Below, one piece after another: positions 52,867 to 63,696 of a DNA stretch of 64,000 nucleotides. The notes beneath the pieces are model-generated. The model was not told the DNA's origin and made no database searches. It worked only from the letters and a program-made list of their open reading frames with translations. Each line of letters starts with the position of its first letter. Position 1 is the first letter of the stretch. Location of the stretch: contig NZ_AP023183.1 in NCBI RefSeq assembly GCF_013426915.1, positions 186,001 to 250,000 on the forward strand. Reading direction: 5' to 3'. The position numbers and the translations under genes are program-made. This DNA comes from Paraburkholderia sp. PGU19. Lineage in GTDB: Bacteria; Pseudomonadota; Gammaproteobacteria; Burkholderiales; Burkholderiaceae.

Positions 52867-54684
52867 ATGAAATTCGCGTTTCGTCCTCTCGTTCTGCAAA
52901 TCCATCGTTGGTGCGGCTTGACCACCGGACTCGTGACTCTCGTGACTGCGATCACGGGCGCATCGATCGTGTTTCGTCCCGATCTCGAGCCTGCGCTCAA
53001 TCGTGACCTGCTGACGGTGCCGACCTGCGCGGAACGCTTGTCGCTCGACACGCTGGTCGCGAATGCCGCCGCGTCGCGGCCTCGCGCGACCCTCAATTAC
53101 GTCCGGATCATTGCGGGCAAAGTGGGCGCGCCGCGCATACCGTCCACGATGATCCGTTTCACCGATCAGTATTTCGTCTTTGTTGATCCGTGCACAGGCC
53201 GGGTATTAGGCGAGCGCTCGCGCTACGGCGGCCTGCTCGGCACGCTCGAGCAAATTCATCGTTTTCGCTTCATGAAGCATGGCAGCCTGATTACCGGTAC
53301 TAGCGCGATCATATTCGGGTTGCTGATCATTGTCGGCGGAGTCGCGCTCTGGTGGCCGCGCACGCGTCGCGGCTGGCGGCACGCTTTCACGCTCAGGTCT
53401 GACTCGCGAAGCCCCATGTCCACCTATCGCCTGCATCGGACCGCCGGCGCCTATGCGAGCGCAATTCTGCTGTCAATGGTGCTGACGGGACTGCCGTGGG
53501 CCTTCGACTGGTACGCGCACTGCATCTATACGATCGTTGGGTCCCCACAACCGATGAAGCCGCCGAAGTCGACCGCGCCTGCGAACGGGGCAACGCGCCT
53601 GTCGCTCGATTCGTTCTTGCGCACAGCGCAGTCGCTATCGCCTGATCCCCAGGACGCACTTCTTCACATCCCTGAGAAGTTACGCGATCCGGTCGAGATG
53701 TACTTGATCGAGCGTGACGCGCCGCATGCGAATGCACGCACGATGCTGTTTATGGACGCCTACACGGGCAAGGTGCTGCGCTTCATTCCGTATTCGAAGA
53801 GCAGCCTCGGACACAAGGCGTACTTCTGGGCGTTGTCGTGGCATACGGGCGCGCTCGGTGGAATATTCGGGCAACTGCTCCTGCTGTTCGGCGCGTTCGC
53901 CGTACCCGCGCTCGCGTACACGGGCATCCGCAACTTCCTGCGCCGAGGGCAGGGCACGGCATTGGCAAAGGCCCGTATGATGGTGCGCGTCGCGAAGACG
54001 ACAGTCGAGGCCGACGGCGTGCGTGCGTTCGAACTGACCGATCGGAAGGGACGCAAGCTACCGCCGTTCGCGGCCGGCGCCCATATCGACGTGCACCTCG
54101 GCGACGGCCTCGTGCGCCAATATTCGCTGTGCAACGATGCGCGGGAGCGGCATCGTTATCTAATTGCAGTGCTGCGCGTTGAACGCTCGCGAGGCGGATC
54201 GGCAGCGATGCACGAGCGCATCCGCGAAGGCGACCTGCTCGAGATCGGCCTGCCGAGCAATAACTTCGCGCTCGACGAGTCCGCACCGCACTCGTTGTTG
54301 CTTGCAGGCGGCATTGGGATCACCCCAATTCTTGCCATGGCGGAGCGGCTCGCGCGGCGACGAGCCGTTTTCGAGATGCACTACTGCGCGCGTTCGCGCT
54401 CGCGCGCGGCATTCCTGCGACGGCTCGCGCAAGCGCCGCTCGCGGGCCGCGTGCGGTACCACTTCAGCGATGAGCGTGCTGACCAGCGATTCGACATCGA
54501 TCGCGTGCTCGACAGTCAGTCGTCGAGCACGCATCTGTACGTCTGCGGCCCCACCGGCTTCATTGACGCGGTGCTATACGCGGCGCGCCACCGCGGCTGG
54601 CCCGAGCGGCAGTTGCATTGCGAGCGTTTCGGGTCAAATGCACAAAAGCCCCCACGACGCGTGCGTTCGACGTCAAGCTCGTGA
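52867..54684 (+). CDS. PepSY-TM protein fused to a ferredoxin-reductase-type FAD/NAD module
   Basis: A 605-residue inner-membrane protein. Residues 1-370 form a PepSY-associated TM protein: LQIHRWCGLTTGLVTLVTAI, IHRFRFMKHGSLITGTSAII with FGLLIIVGGVALWWPRTRRG, a third segment TAGAYASAILLSMVLTGLPW and a last helix GQLLLLFGAFAVPALAYTGI. Histidines in the helices could bind haem. Residues about 375-590 are a phthalate/vanillate-reductase-like domain: HIDVHLGDGLVRQYSLCND (FMN/FAD), LLLAGGIGITPILAMAERL (NAD) and YVCGPTGFIDAVLYAARHR. The usual C-terminal 2Fe-2S domain lies in the next frame over after a CCCCC run. Such proteins are linked to reduction of imported ferric complexes in several bacteria. 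Here it opens the TonB-receptor region. Confidence 0.88.
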   Translation: MKFAFRPLVLQIHRWCGLTTGLVTLVTAITGASIVFRPDLEPALNRDLLTVPTCAERLSLDTLVANAAASRPRATLNYVRIIAGKVGAPRIPSTMIRFTDQYFVFVDPCTGRVLGERSRYGGLLGTLEQIHRFRFMKHGSLITGTSAIIFGLLIIVGGVALWWPRTRRGWRHAFTLRSDSRSPMSTYRLHRTAGAYASAILLSMVLTGLPWAFDWYAHCIYTIVGSPQPMKPPKSTAPANGATRLSLDSFLRTAQSLSPDPQDALLHIPEKLRDPVEMYLIERDAPHANARTMLFMDAYTGKVLRFIPYSKSSLGHKAYFWALSWHTGALGGIFGQLLLLFGAFAVPALAYTGIRNFLRRGQGTALAKARMMVRVAKTTVEADGVRAFELTDRKGRKLPPFAAGAHIDVHLGDGLVRQYSLCNDARERHRYLIAVLRVERSRGGSAAMHERIREGDLLEIGLPSNNFALDESAPHSLLLAGGIGITPILAMAERLARRRAVFEMHYCARSRSRAAFLRRLAQAPLAGRVRYHFSDERADQRFDIDRVLDSQSSSTHLYVCGPTGFIDAVLYAARHRGWPERQLHCERFGSNAQKPPRRVRSTSSS

Positions 54685-54926
54685 GTACGGGCAAGGTGTA
54701 CAGGATTTCAGAGCACAAGACCGTCACCGCGTCGCTGGCCGAGTACGGCGTCAGGATCCCGACGTCTTGCGATCAGGGCATTTGCGGTACGTGCGTCACT
54801 CGTGTGATTGCAGGCAAAGTCGAGCATTTCGACTGCGTGTTGACGGACGCCGAGCGTGAGCAACACGGGTATTTCACGCCATGCTGCTCGCGCGCGAAGG
54901 GCGATCTGCTCGTGCTGGACATCTGA
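54618..54926 (+). CDS. 2Fe-2S ferredoxin domain, out of frame with the preceding reductase
   Basis: From about 54660 on, this frame reads TRAFDVKLVSTGKVYRISEH, SCDQGICGTCVTRVIAG and FTPCCSRAKGDLLVLDI, the plant-type 2Fe-2S domain (C-x4-C-x2-C plus distal Cys) that normally ends reductases of the VanB type. It overlaps the reductase by 67 bases and is displaced by one base at CCCCC (about 54651-54655). The first 14 residues, from a TTG codon, have no family match, so independent translation is doubtful. Restoring one base would give a single protein of about 685 residues. A frameshift by mutation, by sequence error or by recoding cannot be told apart from sequence alone. Confidence 0.8.
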   Translation: MRAFRVKCTKAPTTRAFDVKLVSTGKVYRISEHKTVTASLAEYGVRIPTSCDQGICGTCVTRVIAGKVEHFDCVLTDAEREQHGYFTPCCSRAKGDLLVLDI

Positions 54927-55336
54927 TCCGGCGGCAAACGCGCGCCTTACGCAGGGTGGGACCCGATGCGCGTCGAGGCCGGACCCGATCGGAAAAAGAG
55001 ATTCCAAAACTTGGAAGACACCGTGATAAAAAAGCGATGACGATGATGGCTGTCATGTCTATGTTTTCACCTCTCTCTACGCGCAGGCCGACGGTGACGC
55101 CTGGCGAATGCGGCGTGGCAGCAGCCCGGATACGCGAAGAACTATGCTCCGCAGGTCTTGAGTTGGATGTCCGCATGTGTCGTCCGAATCGGGCGACAAG
55201 CGTGATCGTCGCTGCGGAATCGGGCAGCCGGATCGGCGGCACGAAATCGGACCCGCGATCGCGAAGTGATCAAGGCCAGCATGCCGTTCTTTCTGATCAG
55301 GCAGCCCTTATTCAACGCACCCTTGACGGAACATCT
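54927..55336. other. Intergenic region with TTCCAA/TTGGAA palindrome
   Basis: No gene is called. TTCCAA (55002-55007) and TTGGAA (55011-55016) form a perfect inverted repeat with spacer AAC, a possible regulator site upstream of the secreted tandem-repeat protein. Confidence 0.4.
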
Positions 55337-56131
55337 ATGAAACCCATTTCGATTCGAGCATTTGGCCACAACTTGGCCATCGCCGCGGTGCTGGCAGGCG
55401 CGCTGCACACCAGCGCCGCGAGCGCCGTCGAGCCGTCGGACAACGACGCACTGTCACTGATCATCACGTACCAGACTGCACCCGCGAACAGGCCGGCGCT
55501 GCGCCGCGAACTGGAGCAGTCAACCGCACGCGAGCTCGCGCGCTGGAAGCATGACGGGCGGATCAAGCAATACAACCTCCTGTTCAATCGCTACGCCGAT
55601 TCGGACAACTGGGATGCAATGGCTGTGCTGGCGTTCGCGACGCCGGACGACCTATCCCGCTGGCGGACGGTAGAGCTGACGCGGCCAGCGGCGCTGTCCG
55701 GAAAGGCGCTCTCCGTGACGACCACCATTCATACGACGCCCGTCGACACCAAGCGTGCGGAGACGCTCGGCACGAAATCACGGAATGCGGTCTACGTCGT
55801 TATTCCGTACAAAACGCTCGTTCCGATGGACGAATATGAGAAGTACGCTGACGGCTATGTCATTCCGCAGTTCAAAGGATGGATGGAGGAAGGCGTGCTG
55901 TCCGGGTATTCGCTCTATACGAGCCAGTTTCCGGCCGGCCGTCCCTGGTCCGCAATGGTGATGCTGCAGTACAAGGACGAGGCCGCGCTTAGCGCGCGGG
56001 AGGCGGTAGTCGCGAAGGTGCGCGAGCGTCTGAAGAACAACCCGGAATGGAAGGCCATCAGCGACAGCAAGAAGAACGTGCGGTCCGAGGAGCAGGTCGT
56101 GATCGCCGACTCCGTCGCCGTGAATCAATAG
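55337..56131 (+). CDS. Exported hypothetical protein with internal tandem repeat
   Basis: A 264-residue exported protein; signal peptide MKPISIRAFGHNLAIAAVLA, cleavage near ASAVE. Two repeats align: residues 39-110 (LSLIITYQTAPANRPALRRE ... KQYNLLFNRYADSDNWDAMA) and 151-225 (AVYVVIPYKTLVPMDEYEKY ... SGYSLYTSQFPAGRPWSAMV). Each has strand-helix-strand-strand character with a hydrophobic V-MA-V / VM-LQY strand, suggesting a tandem dimeric alpha/beta (ferredoxin-like) barrel. No catalytic motif recognised. It precedes the binding-protein gene by 19 bases, so the two are probably co-transcribed. A role in handling an imported ligand is inference from context. Confidence 0.75.
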   Translation: MKPISIRAFGHNLAIAAVLAGALHTSAASAVEPSDNDALSLIITYQTAPANRPALRRELEQSTARELARWKHDGRIKQYNLLFNRYADSDNWDAMAVLAFATPDDLSRWRTVELTRPAALSGKALSVTTTIHTTPVDTKRAETLGTKSRNAVYVVIPYKTLVPMDEYEKYADGYVIPQFKGWMEEGVLSGYSLYTSQFPAGRPWSAMVMLQYKDEAALSAREAVVAKVRERLKNNPEWKAISDSKKNVRSEEQVVIADSVAVNQ

Positions 56132-56150: not shown

Positions 56151-57184
56151 ATGATGAAAAAGGTCGCAGTCGCCTTGGTATCCGCGTGCCTCGTCGGCGG
56201 CTACGCGTCGGCCGTCGAACCGGCCATAGCACCCGCAACGGGAGCGGTACCCCAACGTATCGTCTTGCTCGTTGACGAGATCAAGGCGATCCGCAATTTC
56301 CCAGTCGTGTTGGCTGAGCGTCTAGGCTACCTGAACGACGGCCGGATGGCCGTCACGGTGATGAACATACGCGACGACGTTTCGACTGCCGATATGCTAA
56401 CGGACGGGCGCGTCGACGCGGTGGTCGCCTACTACCATCACAACGTTGTCAATCAGGCGCACGGCATCGACACGGAGGCTGTAGTCACGCTTGGCGTGAC
56501 GCCGGGCGCGAAGGTGCTCGTGGCGAATCAGGCCAAAGAAAAATACAAGAGCGTGGCCGACCTCAAGGGCGCGCGCTTTATCGCGGGCGGCACGGGGTCG
56601 TCGAAAAGCACCGTCGCGAATGCGCTCATACTCGCGGGCGGTCACGGGATCGGGGAATATATACGGCTCGGCACCGACGGCAAAGAGAAGAACGTCGATG
56701 CGCTGCGCGATGGCGCAGCCGATTTCGTCGTCGCGCCGACGCCTGACGGCGACGTTTACGAGTCGAAAGGGTGGCCACGGTGTTCGCGGATCTGACATCG
56801 GTGGAAGGCACGCGCCGGAATTTGGGGGCGCTGTTCCCGTCGAGTGCAGTCTATATGTCGAAAACGCGCGTCGACGGGCATCCGGAGATCGCGCGGTATC
56901 TTGCGGGCGCGTTTGTACGAACGCTGCAGTACATCAACTCGCATACCCCGGAGCAGATCATGGCAGTCATTCCGCCGGAGATCAGCGGCAAGGATCGCGC
57001 CGCCTATCTTAAGATGTTGAAGGAGGAGATTCCGATGTTCGCCAACGACGGTCGCATGCCCGACGACGGCGCGACGAAGGAGTGTCGGGTTCTTGCTGCG
57101 GCGAATCCGGCATATGAATCGGTGAAGGTCGACCGCACTTACACGAACGCGTTCGTCGAGGAAGCGCTGCGCACGCTGCGCTGA
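56151..57184 (+). pseudogene. NMT1/SsuA-like ABC substrate-binding protein interrupted by a frameshift
   Basis: The first part, MMKKVAVALVSACLVGGYAS with a signal peptide, continues AIRNFPVVLAERLGYLND, ADMLTDGRVDAVVAYYHH, KSVADLKGARFIAGGTGSSK, then VVAPTPDGDVYESKGW and a stop at 56795. The second part, from about 56770 in another frame, resumes TVFADLTSVEGTRRNLGALF, YMSKTRVDGHPEIARYLAGA and ends VDRTYTNAFVEEALRTLR at 57184. Joined, they form a normal 344-residue type-II binding protein of the NMT1/sulfonate/thiamine-precursor superfamily. The break is at GGG (about 56768-56770), one base missing. GGAG precedes the start. No permease or ATPase gene accompanies it. Confidence 0.8.
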
Positions 57185-57460: not shown

Positions 57461-58681
57461 GTGCCAGATCCCGCATTGCATTCTTCAAAAAGGTCCGTGG
57501 CCCGCACGGAGCCCGTTCGTATGCGCTTTTACAGCCTGTCGATGGCGGTCGGCTTATCAATTACCGCACTCGCGGTGTCGGGCGCGACAGCGGCCCAGGT
57601 CAGCGACGCCCAGACTCCGATGGTCGAATGGGTCGTACCCGCGCTTCCGACGGTTATGCCGCAGACAAAAGAGCAGGCGGACGAAGGTATGAAACTCGGC
57701 CGCGCGCTCGTCGAGCCGGAGGTTCTGCAGCCGACGCTTGATCCCGGTCTGCCCCGTTATCAGCCCCGCACCGACATCAAGCTCTCCGGAAGCTTCAAGG
57801 GTGCAGCCTCCGACGTGCTGCCGGCGCTCGTCAAGCGCTGGATCGCAGGATTCCAGCATTACTACCCGGATGTCAAGATTGAGGTGGCACCACCCTATGC
57901 CGGAAGCCTGGGTGCGAAGGAGTTGGTCAAACAAAATCTCGACTTCGTTTTCGTTTCGCGTGAGTTGAAACCGGATGACGTGACTGACTTCAAAGTCAAG
58001 TTTGGTTACGCTCCGCTGAGCGTACCAATATCGGGCGGCTCGTATCGCCATTTCGGTTTCCTCGATGCCATCGGATTCTTCGTTAATAAGGATAATCCCT
58101 TGCAGTCGCTGACCTATGAGCAGATCGATGAGCTATTTTCGAAGAGCCATCTTCGAGGCGACAAGCCACTTAAAACCTGGGGCGATCTTGGATTGACAGG
58201 CGAATGGGCCGACAAGCCTATTCACGTCTACGCGATCAAGCCGTGGAATGGGTTCGAGGAGTTCTTGCGACAGAAGATCCTGAGTGTTGATGGCAAACGC
58301 GGAGAGTGGCGAGACGATATTCATTACGACAAGCTCGTTTTTCCTCTCGCAAAACGCGTCGCCGATGATCGCTACGGAATCGGATACTCGGGGATCGCGT
58401 ATATCGATGCACCCGTAAAAATGCTACCGCTCAGCGAGAAGGCAAACGGTCCGTTCGTTGCGCCGACCTATGAGAATGTTGCGCTGGCCACCTATCCCCT
58501 TAGCCGGTTGATTTACTTCAATACGAACAAGGCGCCTGAAAAGCCACTTGATCCCGCGCTCGCCGAATTCCTTCGATACGTCCTGAGCCGGGAAGGTCAG
58601 CAGGCGGTCATCGACCACGCCATGTACGTGCCCCTGCGCGCGCAGCAGGTCGAGAATTCGCGCGCGCTAATTGCCAATTGA
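57461..58681 (+). CDS. PstS-like periplasmic substrate-binding protein (first of two)
   Basis: A 406-residue exported protein; GTG start at 57461 has a strong GAGGAGAC site, and an internal ATG at 57521 is an alternative that would give a more compact signal peptide. Mature features of the PstS/PBP-like-2 fold: DIKLSGSFKGAASDVLPALV, FVFVSRELKPDDVTDFKVKF (the SR element of phosphate-binding folds), GFFVNKDNPLQSLTYEQIDE, KTWGDLGLTGEWADKPIHVY, and ATYPLSRLIYFNTNKAP then EFLRYVLSREGQQAVID. It resembles the second copy at 59.5-60.6 kb. No pstCAB genes lie near. Phosphate or another oxyanion ligand is possible but not shown. Confidence 0.85.
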   Translation: MPDPALHSSKRSVARTEPVRMRFYSLSMAVGLSITALAVSGATAAQVSDAQTPMVEWVVPALPTVMPQTKEQADEGMKLGRALVEPEVLQPTLDPGLPRYQPRTDIKLSGSFKGAASDVLPALVKRWIAGFQHYYPDVKIEVAPPYAGSLGAKELVKQNLDFVFVSRELKPDDVTDFKVKFGYAPLSVPISGGSYRHFGFLDAIGFFVNKDNPLQSLTYEQIDELFSKSHLRGDKPLKTWGDLGLTGEWADKPIHVYAIKPWNGFEEFLRQKILSVDGKRGEWRDDIHYDKLVFPLAKRVADDRYGIGYSGIAYIDAPVKMLPLSEKANGPFVAPTYENVALATYPLSRLIYFNTNKAPEKPLDPALAEFLRYVLSREGQQAVIDHAMYVPLRAQQVENSRALIAN

Positions 58682-58779: not shown

Positions 58780-59157
58780 ATGAGAATCTCGCTTCGCGCC
58801 GCGGTCTTTTTGCTGGTGGCTGGGTCCGTGTTGGCCCAGCCGTCTGAGCGCAACTACGCACAATCCCTGGTCGAGAAAACGCTGACCGCACATCCTGAGT
58901 TGACGGTGCTGGCGCTGCACGTTAAGCCGCCGGCGTCACAGGACAACATCATCATCGCATCAAACATCGGCCGTATCGGCAAGAAAGCCGACACCGATGA
59001 CCTCTCTGTTCTGCAATCAGGGAAACCACGCATGGAAATGACGAAGGCCGGCGACCTGTCAGTCGAGCTTGTCATGCGGGACGCAAATGGGCGGCCGATT
59101 GGGGTGATCGGCTCAACGTTCCGGTTCCACCCGGGGACGATGAGTCAATGGTTCTGA
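58780..59157 (+). CDS. Small exported single-domain protein, copy A of the domain in the adjacent TonB receptor
   Basis: A 125-residue protein: signal peptide MRISLRAAVFLLVAGSVLAQ, then one domain, NYAQSLVEKTLTAHPELTVL, LHVKPPASQDNIIIASNIGR, GKKADTDDLSVLQSGKPRME, DANGRPIGVIGSTFRFHPG. The same pattern occurs twice in the N-terminus of the TonB-dependent receptor at 60.8-63.7 kb (RIGKPxDxDD, LxVNR and GxxIG(S/A) stretches). The strand-rich core with a helical start and a D.nG..IG... strand suggests a small PDC/Cache-like sensor domain; the fold call is inference. It lies 98 bp after the first PstS-like gene. Confidence 0.8.
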   Translation: MRISLRAAVFLLVAGSVLAQPSERNYAQSLVEKTLTAHPELTVLALHVKPPASQDNIIIASNIGRIGKKADTDDLSVLQSGKPRMEMTKAGDLSVELVMRDANGRPIGVIGSTFRFHPGTMSQWF

Positions 59158-59465: not shown

Positions 59466-60566
59466 ATGAAGCAAGCGAAGTGGGCTGGAGCATTGCGCAA
59501 GACGACGGTTGCATCGGTCACCGCGATGATTGGGATGACAGCGTTGACCGCACTGATGTCGTCGCCAGCGTCTGCGTTGAAATATGCAGCGGTAGAACAT
59601 CATCTCAATGTCGATCCCTCCATTCCGAAATGGCAACCGGGCGAAGTGCAGTCGCAGCCTGAAGAGGAATTGCGTCTGGTGGGCGCGGACGTGATGGACG
59701 AAATCACGCTGGGCTGGATAAAGATTTATCGAAAGGCTTATCCCCGATTGAGCCTGACCATGGAGGCGAAAGCATCGGGTTCGGGTGGCCCGGCGTTAAC
59801 GGAAGGGAAAGCCGACCTGGCACCGGTCGGCCGCGAATTGCTGCCAGCCGAAGAGAAGGGGTTCGTCGACAAGTTCGGCTACAAGCCGATGGCGATCCGC
59901 GTGGCAACCGGCAGCGTAGGTTCACTCGGCAAGACGGCTACGTCGGTCGTACTGGTTGACAAGGATAATCCGCTCAAGGGACTGACGCTATCCCAGCTCG
60001 ACGCAATCTACTCCAAAACCCGCAATCGAGGCCATGCAGACATCACCACATGGGGCGACCTTGGTCTCGGAGGGGCGTGGGCTGATCGGCCGATCCATCT
60101 GTACGGCCTGAAGCCGGTTAACGGCATCGAATATTTTCTGAAATTGAACGTGCTTGAAGGCGGTGAGTACAAAGACAACATCCAGTTCGTCAAAGGCAAG
60201 GGCTTCACGCACGCGTTCACGGTGGCGGCGGAGGACATGGCAACGCACCCTGGCGGGCTAACCTATGCGTTGTTGGCGAACGTGACGCCGAATGTGAAAG
60301 TGTTGCCGCTGGCAGAAAATGATGGCGGCCCGTTCATTGCGCCGACCTTGCAGAACGTCTATTCGCACCGGTACCCGTTGTCCCGTTACGTCTACATCTT
60401 CGTCAACAAGAAGCCCGGCCAGCCGCTGGAGCCCAAGGTCAAGGAATTCCTGAAGCTGGTGCTGAGCCGCGAGGGGCAGGATGTCGTCGCCAAAGAGGGG
60501 GTGTACATTCCACTCACACCTGACGTGGTGCACCAAGAGTTGGCGAAGCTCGACGAGGCAAATTAA
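59466..60566 (+). CDS. PstS-like periplasmic substrate-binding protein (second copy)
   Basis: A 366-residue exported protein after CAGGAGAC. The signal peptide MKQAKWAGALRKTTVASVTA ends near SPASALK. Common blocks with the first copy: LAPVGRELLPAEEKGFVDKF, VVLVDKDNPLKGLTLSQLDA, ITTWGDLGLGGAWADRPIHL, GLKPVNGIEYFLKLNVLEGG, GPFIAPTLQNVYSHRYPLSR, EFLKLVLSREGQDVVAKEGV. The PVGRE element replaces the usual phosphate-binding serine context, so the ligand could differ. It is followed by the TonB-receptor gene about 210 bp downstream on the same strand. Confidence 0.86.
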   Translation: MKQAKWAGALRKTTVASVTAMIGMTALTALMSSPASALKYAAVEHHLNVDPSIPKWQPGEVQSQPEEELRLVGADVMDEITLGWIKIYRKAYPRLSLTMEAKASGSGGPALTEGKADLAPVGRELLPAEEKGFVDKFGYKPMAIRVATGSVGSLGKTATSVVLVDKDNPLKGLTLSQLDAIYSKTRNRGHADITTWGDLGLGGAWADRPIHLYGLKPVNGIEYFLKLNVLEGGEYKDNIQFVKGKGFTHAFTVAAEDMATHPGGLTYALLANVTPNVKVLPLAENDGGPFIAPTLQNVYSHRYPLSRYVYIFVNKKPGQPLEPKVKEFLKLVLSREGQDVVAKEGVYIPLTPDVVHQELAKLDEAN

Positions 60567-60780
60567 TGCCAGGATGACCCGGGACGGCTGGCGGGCCCTC
60601 GATTGCGCGATCACCTGAGGTCTTGCCGACGTTGCGACTCGCACAAGGAAGTACGCGGCCCTGACCGCCGTTGAACTTTCGGCACACCCACCAAATAGCC
60701 AGATCGCACTGAAGGGGATGGTGTCTTCGGAGACCCTCCCCTGGAAAATAAATAGATGGGCGGGCATAACTGGAGGAGAC

Positions 60781-63696
60781 ATGTTCAGGAAATCCGTGCT
60801 TGCCATGGCGGTTGCGGCTACGTTGCCCATCGCGCTTTTTGCGCAGACGCCGGCGACATCTGCGCAAAGTATGCAGGGACCGACCACGCAAGTGCAGGAG
60901 AAGAGCTATGCGCAGGAGCTGGTTGACACCACCGTCGCAAGGTATCCCGCGCTGCTTGAACTAGACGTGCACGTGACGCCGCCAGATTCAGCTCGCAGCG
61001 TCATCATTGCCGCGAAGTCGCGTCAACGCATCGGCAAACCGACCGATGCGGACGATTTGGCTGTATTCAAGTCGGGTGAGCCGTTCGTCGAGGTCAACCG
61101 GTCCGGCAATCAGAACGTAGAAGCGCATGTACCGTTGTTCGACGCGCATGGAACGATCATCGGCAGCGTCGAAATGACCTTTCCGTACCCGGCCGGGTCG
61201 GGTTTTGACCAGATCGCGCTGATCAAGACGGCCGGACAGATCCGCGATGAAATGAGCCGGCGTATTGCGCATGCGCCGAATCTTTTCGAACCAGCCCGAT
61301 TCGATGTGCGGATTCCGCTCAACACCTATGCCCAAACGTTGATCGATGAGACGCTGGCCAAGTACCCCGACGTGGTGGTGATTGCGATGCATGTCAAGCC
61401 CCCAGGAGGCGGCACCGATTACCCGATCATCGCTTCGAACATCGGTCGGATTGGTAAACCGGCGGACGAAGATGACATGCAGGTGATCACTACCGGAAAG
61501 ACCAGCCTCGAGGTCAATCGCGAGGAGGACCGCTTCGAAGTCAAATTGCCGTTGCAGGATATGAACGGCAACACGATCGGGGCGCTCGGCGTGATCTTTC
61601 CATACAAGAGAAGCGTCAGACAGGCCGGGCTGCAACGGCAGGCAGAAGCAATTCGGGACGAGTTGCGCGCGCGCATTCCGAGTAGCGCAAAGTTGTTCGA
61701 AGCGGCTGCGTTGCAGCCTGCGCAACCGGCGCCGGCTGTCGTGGCAGCCGAATTGGACAAATCGGCATTGGGGAACAAGACATCGCTGCCGATGACGAAA
61801 CAGGAAGTCTCAAGTGCGGCGCTCCAGGGCACACAGGATGGACTGTCCGATGCGGTCAAAGACCAGGCCGGGGTCGCCCCGACGAATTCAAAAGGCAGCC
61901 CAGCCGACGCACAGAGTATTCGCGGCATCAAGCTCAACCTGTTTTCGAACTATCGACTCAATGGCGGCCTTCCGATTGCCGGGGTGGTGACGACGCCGAC
62001 CGACGACAAGGCGCGCATCGAAACGCTCAAGGGCGCCAACGCACTGATGTTCGGTGTTGCCAGTCCGGCCGGCATCATCAACCTGGTGACCAAGCGCGCC
62101 ATCGATCGAGACGTCACTTCATTGATCCTGTCTGGCAACTCGTTCGGGCAATACGGAGCGGGCATCGACATCGGCCGGCGCTTTGGCAGCGAGAAGCAGT
62201 TTGGGCTTCGCGCCAATCTATCCGGCGCACATCTGGAGAACGGTGTGCGCGGCGCAAATGGGCACGGTTGGTTTGCGAGTCTGGGCGCGGACTGGCAAGT
62301 GACAGACCGGCTCACTTTCCAGTTCGATTTCGAGGAGTACAAGAAGGAGGTGGTGGAGCAGGCATCCCTCAGCCTGCCGACAGCCGTCAAGGGACACATA
62401 ACCGTGCCTCGGGTGCCGGACCCGAGAAACCTGTTGTCTGGCCCATGGGCCGTGTATTCACCGACGACGACCAACGTTCAGGGACGCGTCGACTACGTTT
62501 TCAACGAGAACTGGAAAGGACTTGTCGAGATCGGGCGTTCCTACGCGGATCGCTCGCGCCTCACAGGTCGCATTGCGGGCTATGACCTCGTCACCGGGGC
62601 AGGCGGCGTGGAAACGGTCAACACGGTCACCCAGGACTACATCAACAAGTTCGAGCGGGCCGAGTTGCTCGGCAAGTTCTCGACCGGGCCATTCAGGCAT
62701 GACCTGACATTGGGTCTTTCGCGCAGTGAACGCAACGCGGAGACACCGGCGCAAAACAGCATCGTTCTGCCGGGGACGATCAACATCTATGATCCGACGC
62801 CCTTTCCGGCGCCGGTCCCGACTCATCCGTCGACCTCTTTGCCGCTGCAAACCAGCAGCGACAGCGGGCTCTACGCTTACGACAATGTTGGCATCGGGCA
62901 AAAATGGAAAGTGCTGGCCGGCTTTCGAGAAACTCGCTCGGTGTCGAGCGACGGGAGGGAGTCACAGGGAACCTATCTGCCGCTGCCTGCGTTCGGCATT
63001 CTTTACGATGTGCTGCCCACCACCACCTTGTTCGCCAGTTACATGAAGGGGCTGGAAGATGGCGGCGTCGCGCCGGTTAATGCGGTCAATGCCTATCAGA
63101 TTCTGGCGCCGGCTGTATCGACGCAGAAGGAGATCGGGATTCGCGACTCGTATTTCGAGGGACTGTCGGTCACGGCGTCGTACTTCATCATCGACCGCGT
63201 CAACGCCGTGACCAACTCGGTGACGAAGGTGTTTTCCAACGATGGCATGATCAAATACCAAGGCGCCGAGGCAGTTGTCACCAAGCAGTTCGGCCGTCAA
63301 TGGAGCGTGACCACGGCCGTACAGTGGCTCAATGCGGTGCAGCATCCGGTGTCGGACATGACGATCGCGGGCAAGACGCCTGAGAACACACCGAAGTGGA
63401 TCGGAAACGTATCGGTGACGCACCGGCCGTCGTATGTGCCGGGACTTGCGCTGACAGTCGGCGCGTCGTTTGTGTCACAGCGACCGGTGAATCCGCAGGA
63501 CCAGGGCTACATTTCGGGTTATGTCATTTATTCGGCTGGGGCGGCGTATGCCACGGTGATCGGCGGTCATCGCACTTCGTTTGTCATGAGTATCGACAAC
63601 CTGACCAACCGAAGGTACTGGAATTCAGTGCAAACCGGCACGTTGGGGACTGGCATGGACCGCAGCGTACGCCTCAACGCAAAAATCGATTTCTAA
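60781..63696 (+). CDS. TonB-dependent receptor with two N-terminal PDC/Cache-like domains
   Basis: A 971-residue outer-membrane receptor. Start MFRKSVLAMAVAATLPIALF has GGAGGA upstream; the signal peptide ends near FAQ. Residues about 42-136 and 182-275 are two copies of one domain (SYAQELVDTTVARYPALLEL ... IGSVEMTFPYP; TYAQTLIDETLAKYPDVVVI ... IGALGVIFPYK), each followed by a helix (IRDEMSRRIAHAPNLFE; IRDELRARIPSSAKLFE). A linker leads to a short plug domain at about 330-440 (LSDAVKDQAGVAPTN, IETLKGANALMFGVASPAGI with INLVTKRA) and a barrel at about 445-971 ending VRLNAKIDF. Plug and barrel are of the siderophore-receptor type. Standard receptors have a signalling STN domain or nothing at this place; two PDC-like domains are unusual. 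Confidence 0.88.
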   Translation: MFRKSVLAMAVAATLPIALFAQTPATSAQSMQGPTTQVQEKSYAQELVDTTVARYPALLELDVHVTPPDSARSVIIAAKSRQRIGKPTDADDLAVFKSGEPFVEVNRSGNQNVEAHVPLFDAHGTIIGSVEMTFPYPAGSGFDQIALIKTAGQIRDEMSRRIAHAPNLFEPARFDVRIPLNTYAQTLIDETLAKYPDVVVIAMHVKPPGGGTDYPIIASNIGRIGKPADEDDMQVITTGKTSLEVNREEDRFEVKLPLQDMNGNTIGALGVIFPYKRSVRQAGLQRQAEAIRDELRARIPSSAKLFEAAALQPAQPAPAVVAAELDKSALGNKTSLPMTKQEVSSAALQGTQDGLSDAVKDQAGVAPTNSKGSPADAQSIRGIKLNLFSNYRLNGGLPIAGVVTTPTDDKARIETLKGANALMFGVASPAGIINLVTKRAIDRDVTSLILSGNSFGQYGAGIDIGRRFGSEKQFGLRANLSGAHLENGVRGANGHGWFASLGADWQVTDRLTFQFDFEEYKKEVVEQASLSLPTAVKGHITVPRVPDPRNLLSGPWAVYSPTTTNVQGRVDYVFNENWKGLVEIGRSYADRSRLTGRIAGYDLVTGAGGVETVNTVTQDYINKFERAELLGKFSTGPFRHDLTLGLSRSERNAETPAQNSIVLPGTINIYDPTPFPAPVPTHPSTSLPLQTSSDSGLYAYDNVGIGQKWKVLAGFRETRSVSSDGRESQGTYLPLPAFGILYDVLPTTTLFASYMKGLEDGGVAPVNAVNAYQILAPAVSTQKEIGIRDSYFEGLSVTASYFIIDRVNAVTNSVTKVFSNDGMIKYQGAEAVVTKQFGRQWSVTTAVQWLNAVQHPVSDMTIAGKTPENTPKWIGNVSVTHRPSYVPGLALTVGASFVSQRPVNPQDQGYISGYVIYSAGAAYATVIGGHRTSFVMSIDNLTNRRYWNSVQTGTLGTGMDRSVRLNAKIDF

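Follow-up and report, generated by a model that had tools for sequence, protein, structure and literature searches.

What might a TonB-dependent receptor do with two extra domains set between its signal peptide and its plug? This question is raised by a receptor gene in the window, the whole 64-kb stretch of DNA that was analyzed. To our knowledge, how cargo leaves TonB-dependent receptors and which periplasmic recipient takes it up are poorly known outside a few cases. The initial annotation had described a duplicated N-terminal domain at receptor residues 42 to 136 and 182 to 275, with a similar helix after each copy, ahead of a plug and barrel. All of these parts were recovered (Table 1). 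A domain profile placed the copies at exactly those residues, the two being 41% identical over 95 residues (E = 7e-26, single comparison); the helices were seen in the AF2 model; and the plug and barrel, C-terminal to the domains, scored above their Pfam cut-offs (PF07715, 27.5 bits against 23.9; PF00593, 107 bits against 27). As listed, the reading frame opens further upstream, at position 60718 (ATG); the start codon at 60781 (also ATG) is closely preceded by GGAGGA and, by inspection, is the start of the signal peptide.

Table 1. Receptor parts and neighboring cluster genes within the window
Feature	Coordinates	Strand	Basis
PepSY-TM/NAD-binding reductase fusion	52867..54684	+	PF03929 2.4e-50, PF00175 3.3e-6
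Protein without Pfam or NCBIfam match (cluster c15)	54881..56131	+	Family searches
NMT1-like binding protein, two overlapping frames (56151-56795, 56771-57184)	56151..57184	+	PF09084 6.6e-8, first half
PstS-like binding protein, KPWNGFEEF replaces phosphate SGT	57461..58681	+	PF12849 3.5e-18
Standalone domain copy (type A), 125 aa, signal peptide by inspection	58780..59157	+	ORF and domain profile
PstS-like binding protein, KPVNGIEYF replaces SGT	59466..60566	+	PF12849 2.3e-20; alignment to 4omb
TonB-dependent receptor, 971 aa, two N-terminal PAS/GAF/Cache-class domains	60781..63696	+	ORF and Pfam
Receptor signal peptide	60781..60846	+	Inspection; top hydropathy window among residues 1-335
Receptor domain copy 1 (diverged)	60904..61188	+	Domain-profile match 8e-35; AF2 model
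C-terminal helix, receptor domain 1	61210..61257	+	AF2 model residues 109-124
Receptor domain copy 2	61324..61605	+	Domain-profile match 2e-40; AF2 model
C-terminal helix, receptor domain 2	61621..61674	+	AF2 model residues 246-263
Receptor plug, residues 334-432	61780..62076	+	PF07715 4.7e-6
Receptor beta-barrel, residues 547-941	62419..63603	+	PF00593 2.7e-30

The receptor belongs to the siderophore/metal-chelate type of the TonB-dependent family. It scored 219.7 bits against the NCBIfam siderophore receptor model TIGR01783, just below the cut-off of 223.5, and the solved structures nearest to it by sequence were FemA (E = 2.8e-40) and BauA. By eye, no clear TonB box consensus was seen between the second domain and the plug, and the full-length AF2 model was too poor to place the tandem (pLDDT 61.8, plug region not resolved). 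Because the alignment to FemA begins at FemA residue 116, which corresponds to query residue 313, the tandem occupies the place of FemA's N-terminal part. FecA, FpvA, and FemA-type receptors presumably carry an STN domain at that terminus. The segments matched no such known receptor domain: no Pfam or NCBIfam model reached its cut-off on them, and STN (PF07660) gave no match at E ≤ 0.1 in the receptor. The receptor's contig (C5) held no STN match, with four elsewhere in the genome, and no FecR match. Both FecR matches of the genome lie on contig C2, where a FecR match and an STN match adjoin each other, so no FecR route exists close by. The position of the tandem and the distance of that route both speak for the main rival of the explanation that we favor, namely, that the tandem would substitute for STN and report receptor occupancy to the adjacent histidine kinase and response regulator, with standalone copies of the domain as soluble relays. 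PAS/GAF/Cache folds are also typical sensors.

The initial annotation had called the domains PDC/Cache-like, which fits the predicted fold class and is unproven for the family. Structure prediction gave the domain a confident PAS/GAF/Cache-class fold (AF2, pLDDT 90.7), and its best structural alignments in the fold search were with small GAF domains, those of NLH1/NLH2 from A. aeolicus (4g3w/4g3v). The 50 matches listed for the domain included no CitA or DcuS chain, which excludes nothing. The sequence signal was weak and pointed towards sCache_3/DcuS, with DcuS as the top PDB sequence match (E = 0.14, a weak likeness over the second half). On this receptor, Pfam sCache_3 stayed below cut-off (16.6 against 28.8 bits and 14.9 against 28.4 bits); at E ≤ 0.1, it matched 3 and 2 of 13 receptors (best E, 0.0023). 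Among 26 single domains at E ≤ 1, two matched sCache_3_2, one sCache_3_3, and two dCache_1. Profile-profile probabilities, from small home-made sets (15 of 16, 19 of 22, and 8 of 13 loci, with 2, 7, and 2 dropped for stops), were 11.7 for sCache_3, 17.6 for GAF_2, and 0.4 for dCache_1. The domain, which also occurs in standalone copies, makes up a separate family, and this unnamed family could receive its own model. The architecture had also been put forward as undescribed. That claim stands in part: the receptor type is already known, and the appended module, which no family model searched names, appears to be new. Among open-licence PMC papers, we recognized none on this domain-receptor combination.

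Across 64 domains, a histidine (62), an arginine (61), and D residues at three positions (62, 59, and 64) were invariant or nearly so. Such conservation, together with the small-ligand binding frequent in this fold class, is consistent with each domain binding a small ligand, such as a released chelator or metal, and regulating the plug. We regard such a ligand store or gate as rather improbable. PMC12772337 names R107, H110, and R147 as pocket residues of DcuS; none of the three has an equivalent in the domain alignment anchored on RIG and P..D, which leaves no known ligand to assign to the domain by analogy, and the conserved residues may be structural. No flanking transmembrane helix was found in receptor residues 23 to 335 (highest 19-residue hydropathy mean, 0.94), and no hydropathy window of 1.6 or above lay outside the signal peptide in the five domain-bearing proteins scanned. 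A membrane helix is thus not part of the design.

The domain system is rare and patchy. In its own genome, all four domain matches at E ≤ 1 fell within the receptor cluster. The system was present in 1 of 34 genomes of the same genus and in 0 of 24 other genomes of the order. Order- and class-wide searches, which scored no more than 10 or 11 candidates from each genome and may thus have missed members, gave matches in at least 3 of 399 and at least 1 of 369 genomes, respectively. The class-wide match was the own genome, and the order-wide matches were the own genome and two PAS regions that, by eye, belong to hybrid kinases and were rejected as members. A plasmid collection contributed three records of 0.7 to 0.9 Mb, from Azoarcus KH32C and two Polymorphobacter; presence on plasmids is compatible with transfer. 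Annotation in the plasmid records goes no further than "TonB-dependent receptor" or "hypothetical protein" and does not name the domain. A scan of an 84,980-species collection with only two peptide patterns returned 57 stretches, of which 25 loci in 22 genomes were confirmed. These 22 genomes, the window, the Azoarcus plasmid, and one of the two Polymorphobacter plasmids make up the 25-genome set analyzed below.

Fusion of the domain to a receptor was found in nine proteins from eight genomes: the window, Paraburkholderia lacunae, P. podalyriae, P. rhynchosiae, Burkholderia Bp8963, Pandoraea terrae, Ralstonia H2Cu5, and Azoarcus. Eight of the nine receptors carry two copies and one carries a single copy; this recurrence indicates that the fusion is not an assembly accident. 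Pandoraea terrae has two adjacent receptors (L016, 9860-12790 and 14256-17153), the second with one domain only. In eight other genomes (two Dyella, five Rhodanobacter, and one Eremiobacterota MAG), the domain is instead fused to a propeller, in nine proteins, one Rhodanobacter having a second, single-copy gene. In the remaining 9 of 25 genomes, the copies found were all in proteins other than the receptor or the propeller, and the relatives' proteins showed no fusion to a kinase. The fusion is not essential, since it is missing from two Collimonas receptors that share 51% identity with the window receptor; both have two standalone copies nearby. These receptors, like the single-domain receptor of Pandoraea, would fit a neighboring secreted gene having joined the receptor by chance and doing little there. 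We consider so passive a fusion very improbable, given its retention, with conserved motifs, in nine receptors across five genera and the joining of the same domain to a propeller.

In a tree of 64 domains and 93 columns, built without the rows of loci L009, L011, and L012 and without identical domains, the receptor domains formed two groups, one of first copies (98/92) and one of second copies (94/78). Neither group paired with the first or second propeller copies, and one shared tandem ancestor did not emerge from this tree of few columns and long branches.

The window receptor lies in a cluster that extends past the window end. The standalone copy in the window sits between the two PstS-like genes and lacks the C-terminal part of its 151-residue P. 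lacunae counterpart. A second standalone copy starts 11 bases beyond the window (L009, 2011-2562), with a YncE-like propeller directly after it. The second half of the NMT1-like gene has no Pfam match, and both halves cluster with NMT1-type proteins. The cluster c15 protein appears by inspection to be secreted, its true start lying downstream of the listed one. The regulator pair scored best against heavy-metal two-component models, below cut-off. Relative to relatives, three cluster genes look interrupted or shortened (the NMT1-like gene, the standalone copy in the window, and an ATP-citrate-lyase-like small subunit at L009, 4199-5110), through either assembly indels or early decay. Protein clusters c11, c13, and c14, which had no family match and may be antisense shadow frames, were ignored.

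Similar neighbors recur across the 25 genomes. In the fetched DNA, which was of unequal lengths and for the window comprised all 64 kb plus the stretch beyond, we found a propeller in 23 genomes, a histidine kinase in 21, a regulator in 20, PstS-like proteins in 15, NMT1-like proteins in 10, and a PepSY reductase in 9; TonB receptors of cluster a occurred in 14 and of cluster b in 9, two genomes having both, for 21 with any receptor. We then compared one locus per genome with 40 control stretches of 20 kb from only two of the genomes, using family profiles trained on the case loci themselves and a set in which several genomes are close relatives and not independent: the frequencies were 20/25 versus 0/40 for the propeller, 21/25 versus 1/40 for any TonB receptor, 15/25 versus 0/40 for PstS-like, 9/25 versus 0/40 for NMT1-like, and 9/25 versus 2/40 for the PepSY reductase. 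Kinase and regulator genes were each present at 19/25 loci, against 9/40 and 5/40 control stretches. The last two counts favor signalling to the two-component system. Case-trained profiles also gave the counts in the fetched DNA, and p-values for the comparison with the controls should not be read at face value. Kinase genes are, however, common in the controls, no kinase fusion was seen, and the domain is also propeller-fused and made as separate proteins; overall, we judge it unlikely that the tandem stands in for STN.

A type B standalone copy, with a long insert, adjoined the propeller in all eight receptor-fusion genomes, and a TonB receptor gene lay in the fetched DNA of seven of the eight propeller-fusion genomes. 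Most of these receptors belong to cluster b, and the receptor type served may therefore differ between the two fusions. Among 37 distinct PstS-like members, 17 had a KPxNG[IF]E-like motif, 8 PNAMS, and 1 SGT, with 11 not classified. SGT, which we take to be the phosphate-binding motif of PstS-like proteins, is thus missing in 25 of 26 classified sequences, including both window genes. Paraburkholderia piptadeniae shows an unusual expansion (L038, 1899-8772 and 13414-15806), with a PstS-like run of nine profile matches, a receptor, and two domain copies. Citrate was an attractive ligand, given that CitA and DcuS belong to one sensor family. We rejected it, keeping it as a lead only: the DcuS pocket residues are absent and citrate-related genes are too patchy near the cluster (ATP-citrate-lyase-like large subunit in 3 of 25 genomes, small subunit in 4, CitS-type symporter in 2). 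An ATP-citrate-lyase-like pair (Citrate_bind, Succ_CoA_lig) lies in Paraburkholderia clusters (L009, 4199-7856; L012, 1800-5891), and both Polymorphobacter clusters have a citrate/cation symporter-like gene (L014, 6319-7647; L029, 4339-5679; TIGR00783, 412.7 bits against a cut-off of 549).

We tentatively favor, at a little short of even confidence, the explanation that the tandem is a periplasmic docking and hand-off module of a metal-chelate uptake system. The tandem would lie on the periplasmic side, at the position of STN in FecA/FemA-type receptors, and would hold released cargo, or the periplasmic carriers of that cargo, at the barrel exit. It may thereby link the receptor with a periplasmic set reserved to it, made up of standalone copies, the YncE-like propeller, PstS-like proteins that lack the phosphate motif, the NMT1-type binding protein, and the PepSY-type reductase, the whole system being putatively under two-component control. 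That one domain occurs on the receptor, on the propeller, and alone suggests a shared role in docking or hand-off, and the two fusions, with a receptor gene near most of the propeller fusions, form a Rosetta-stone pattern that argues for docking. The cargo is probably a metal chelate, judging from the sequence proximity to FemA and BauA, the PepSY reductase, and regulators closest to, though below the cut-offs of, heavy-metal models. Against docking stand the tree, in which receptor and propeller copies do not pair, the cluster b receptors near the propeller fusions, the Collimonas receptors without fusion, and the nearby kinase and regulator genes, which leave room for signalling. A broader idea is possible, and we hold it with more reserve: the domain would represent a soluble PAS-fold module of the periplasm, new as a class, that can be swapped between receptor and propeller and physically relays cargo from the exit of the barrel to carriers in the periplasm. 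If such a relay exists, extracytoplasmic sensor-fold domains can work without any membrane helix. Because some bacteria have the domain fused to the receptor and others to a secreted propeller, candidate partners can be named, and the sharing of the domain between the receptor and its neighbors suggests a private relay for the receptor's import.

Alongside STN, the domain is a candidate for a further type of periplasmic domain. Like the STN transducers FecA, FpvA, and FemA, the receptor is of siderophore type and has an N-terminal extension before its plug; it differs from them in carrying two PAS/GAF/Cache-class domains instead of STN and in having no FecR on its contig. The domain shares its predicted fold class and a weak second-half sequence similarity with sCache_3/PDC sensors such as DcuS and CitA. 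Unlike those, it scores below the Pfam cut-off, lacks a flanking hydrophobic helix, and occurs outside kinases and chemoreceptors. GAF domains are mostly cytoplasmic, and Pfam GAF matched only 1 of the 26 single domains, at E = 0.076 and not over the cut-off; both points set the domain apart from small GAF domains such as NLH1/NLH2. In E. coli, the YncE gene presumably pairs with the TonB receptor PqqU (YncD). The propeller beyond the window differs from YncE in scoring 61 bits against that model, far under the cut-off of 400, whereas the arrangement is alike: in both, a TonB receptor stands beside a YncE-like propeller.
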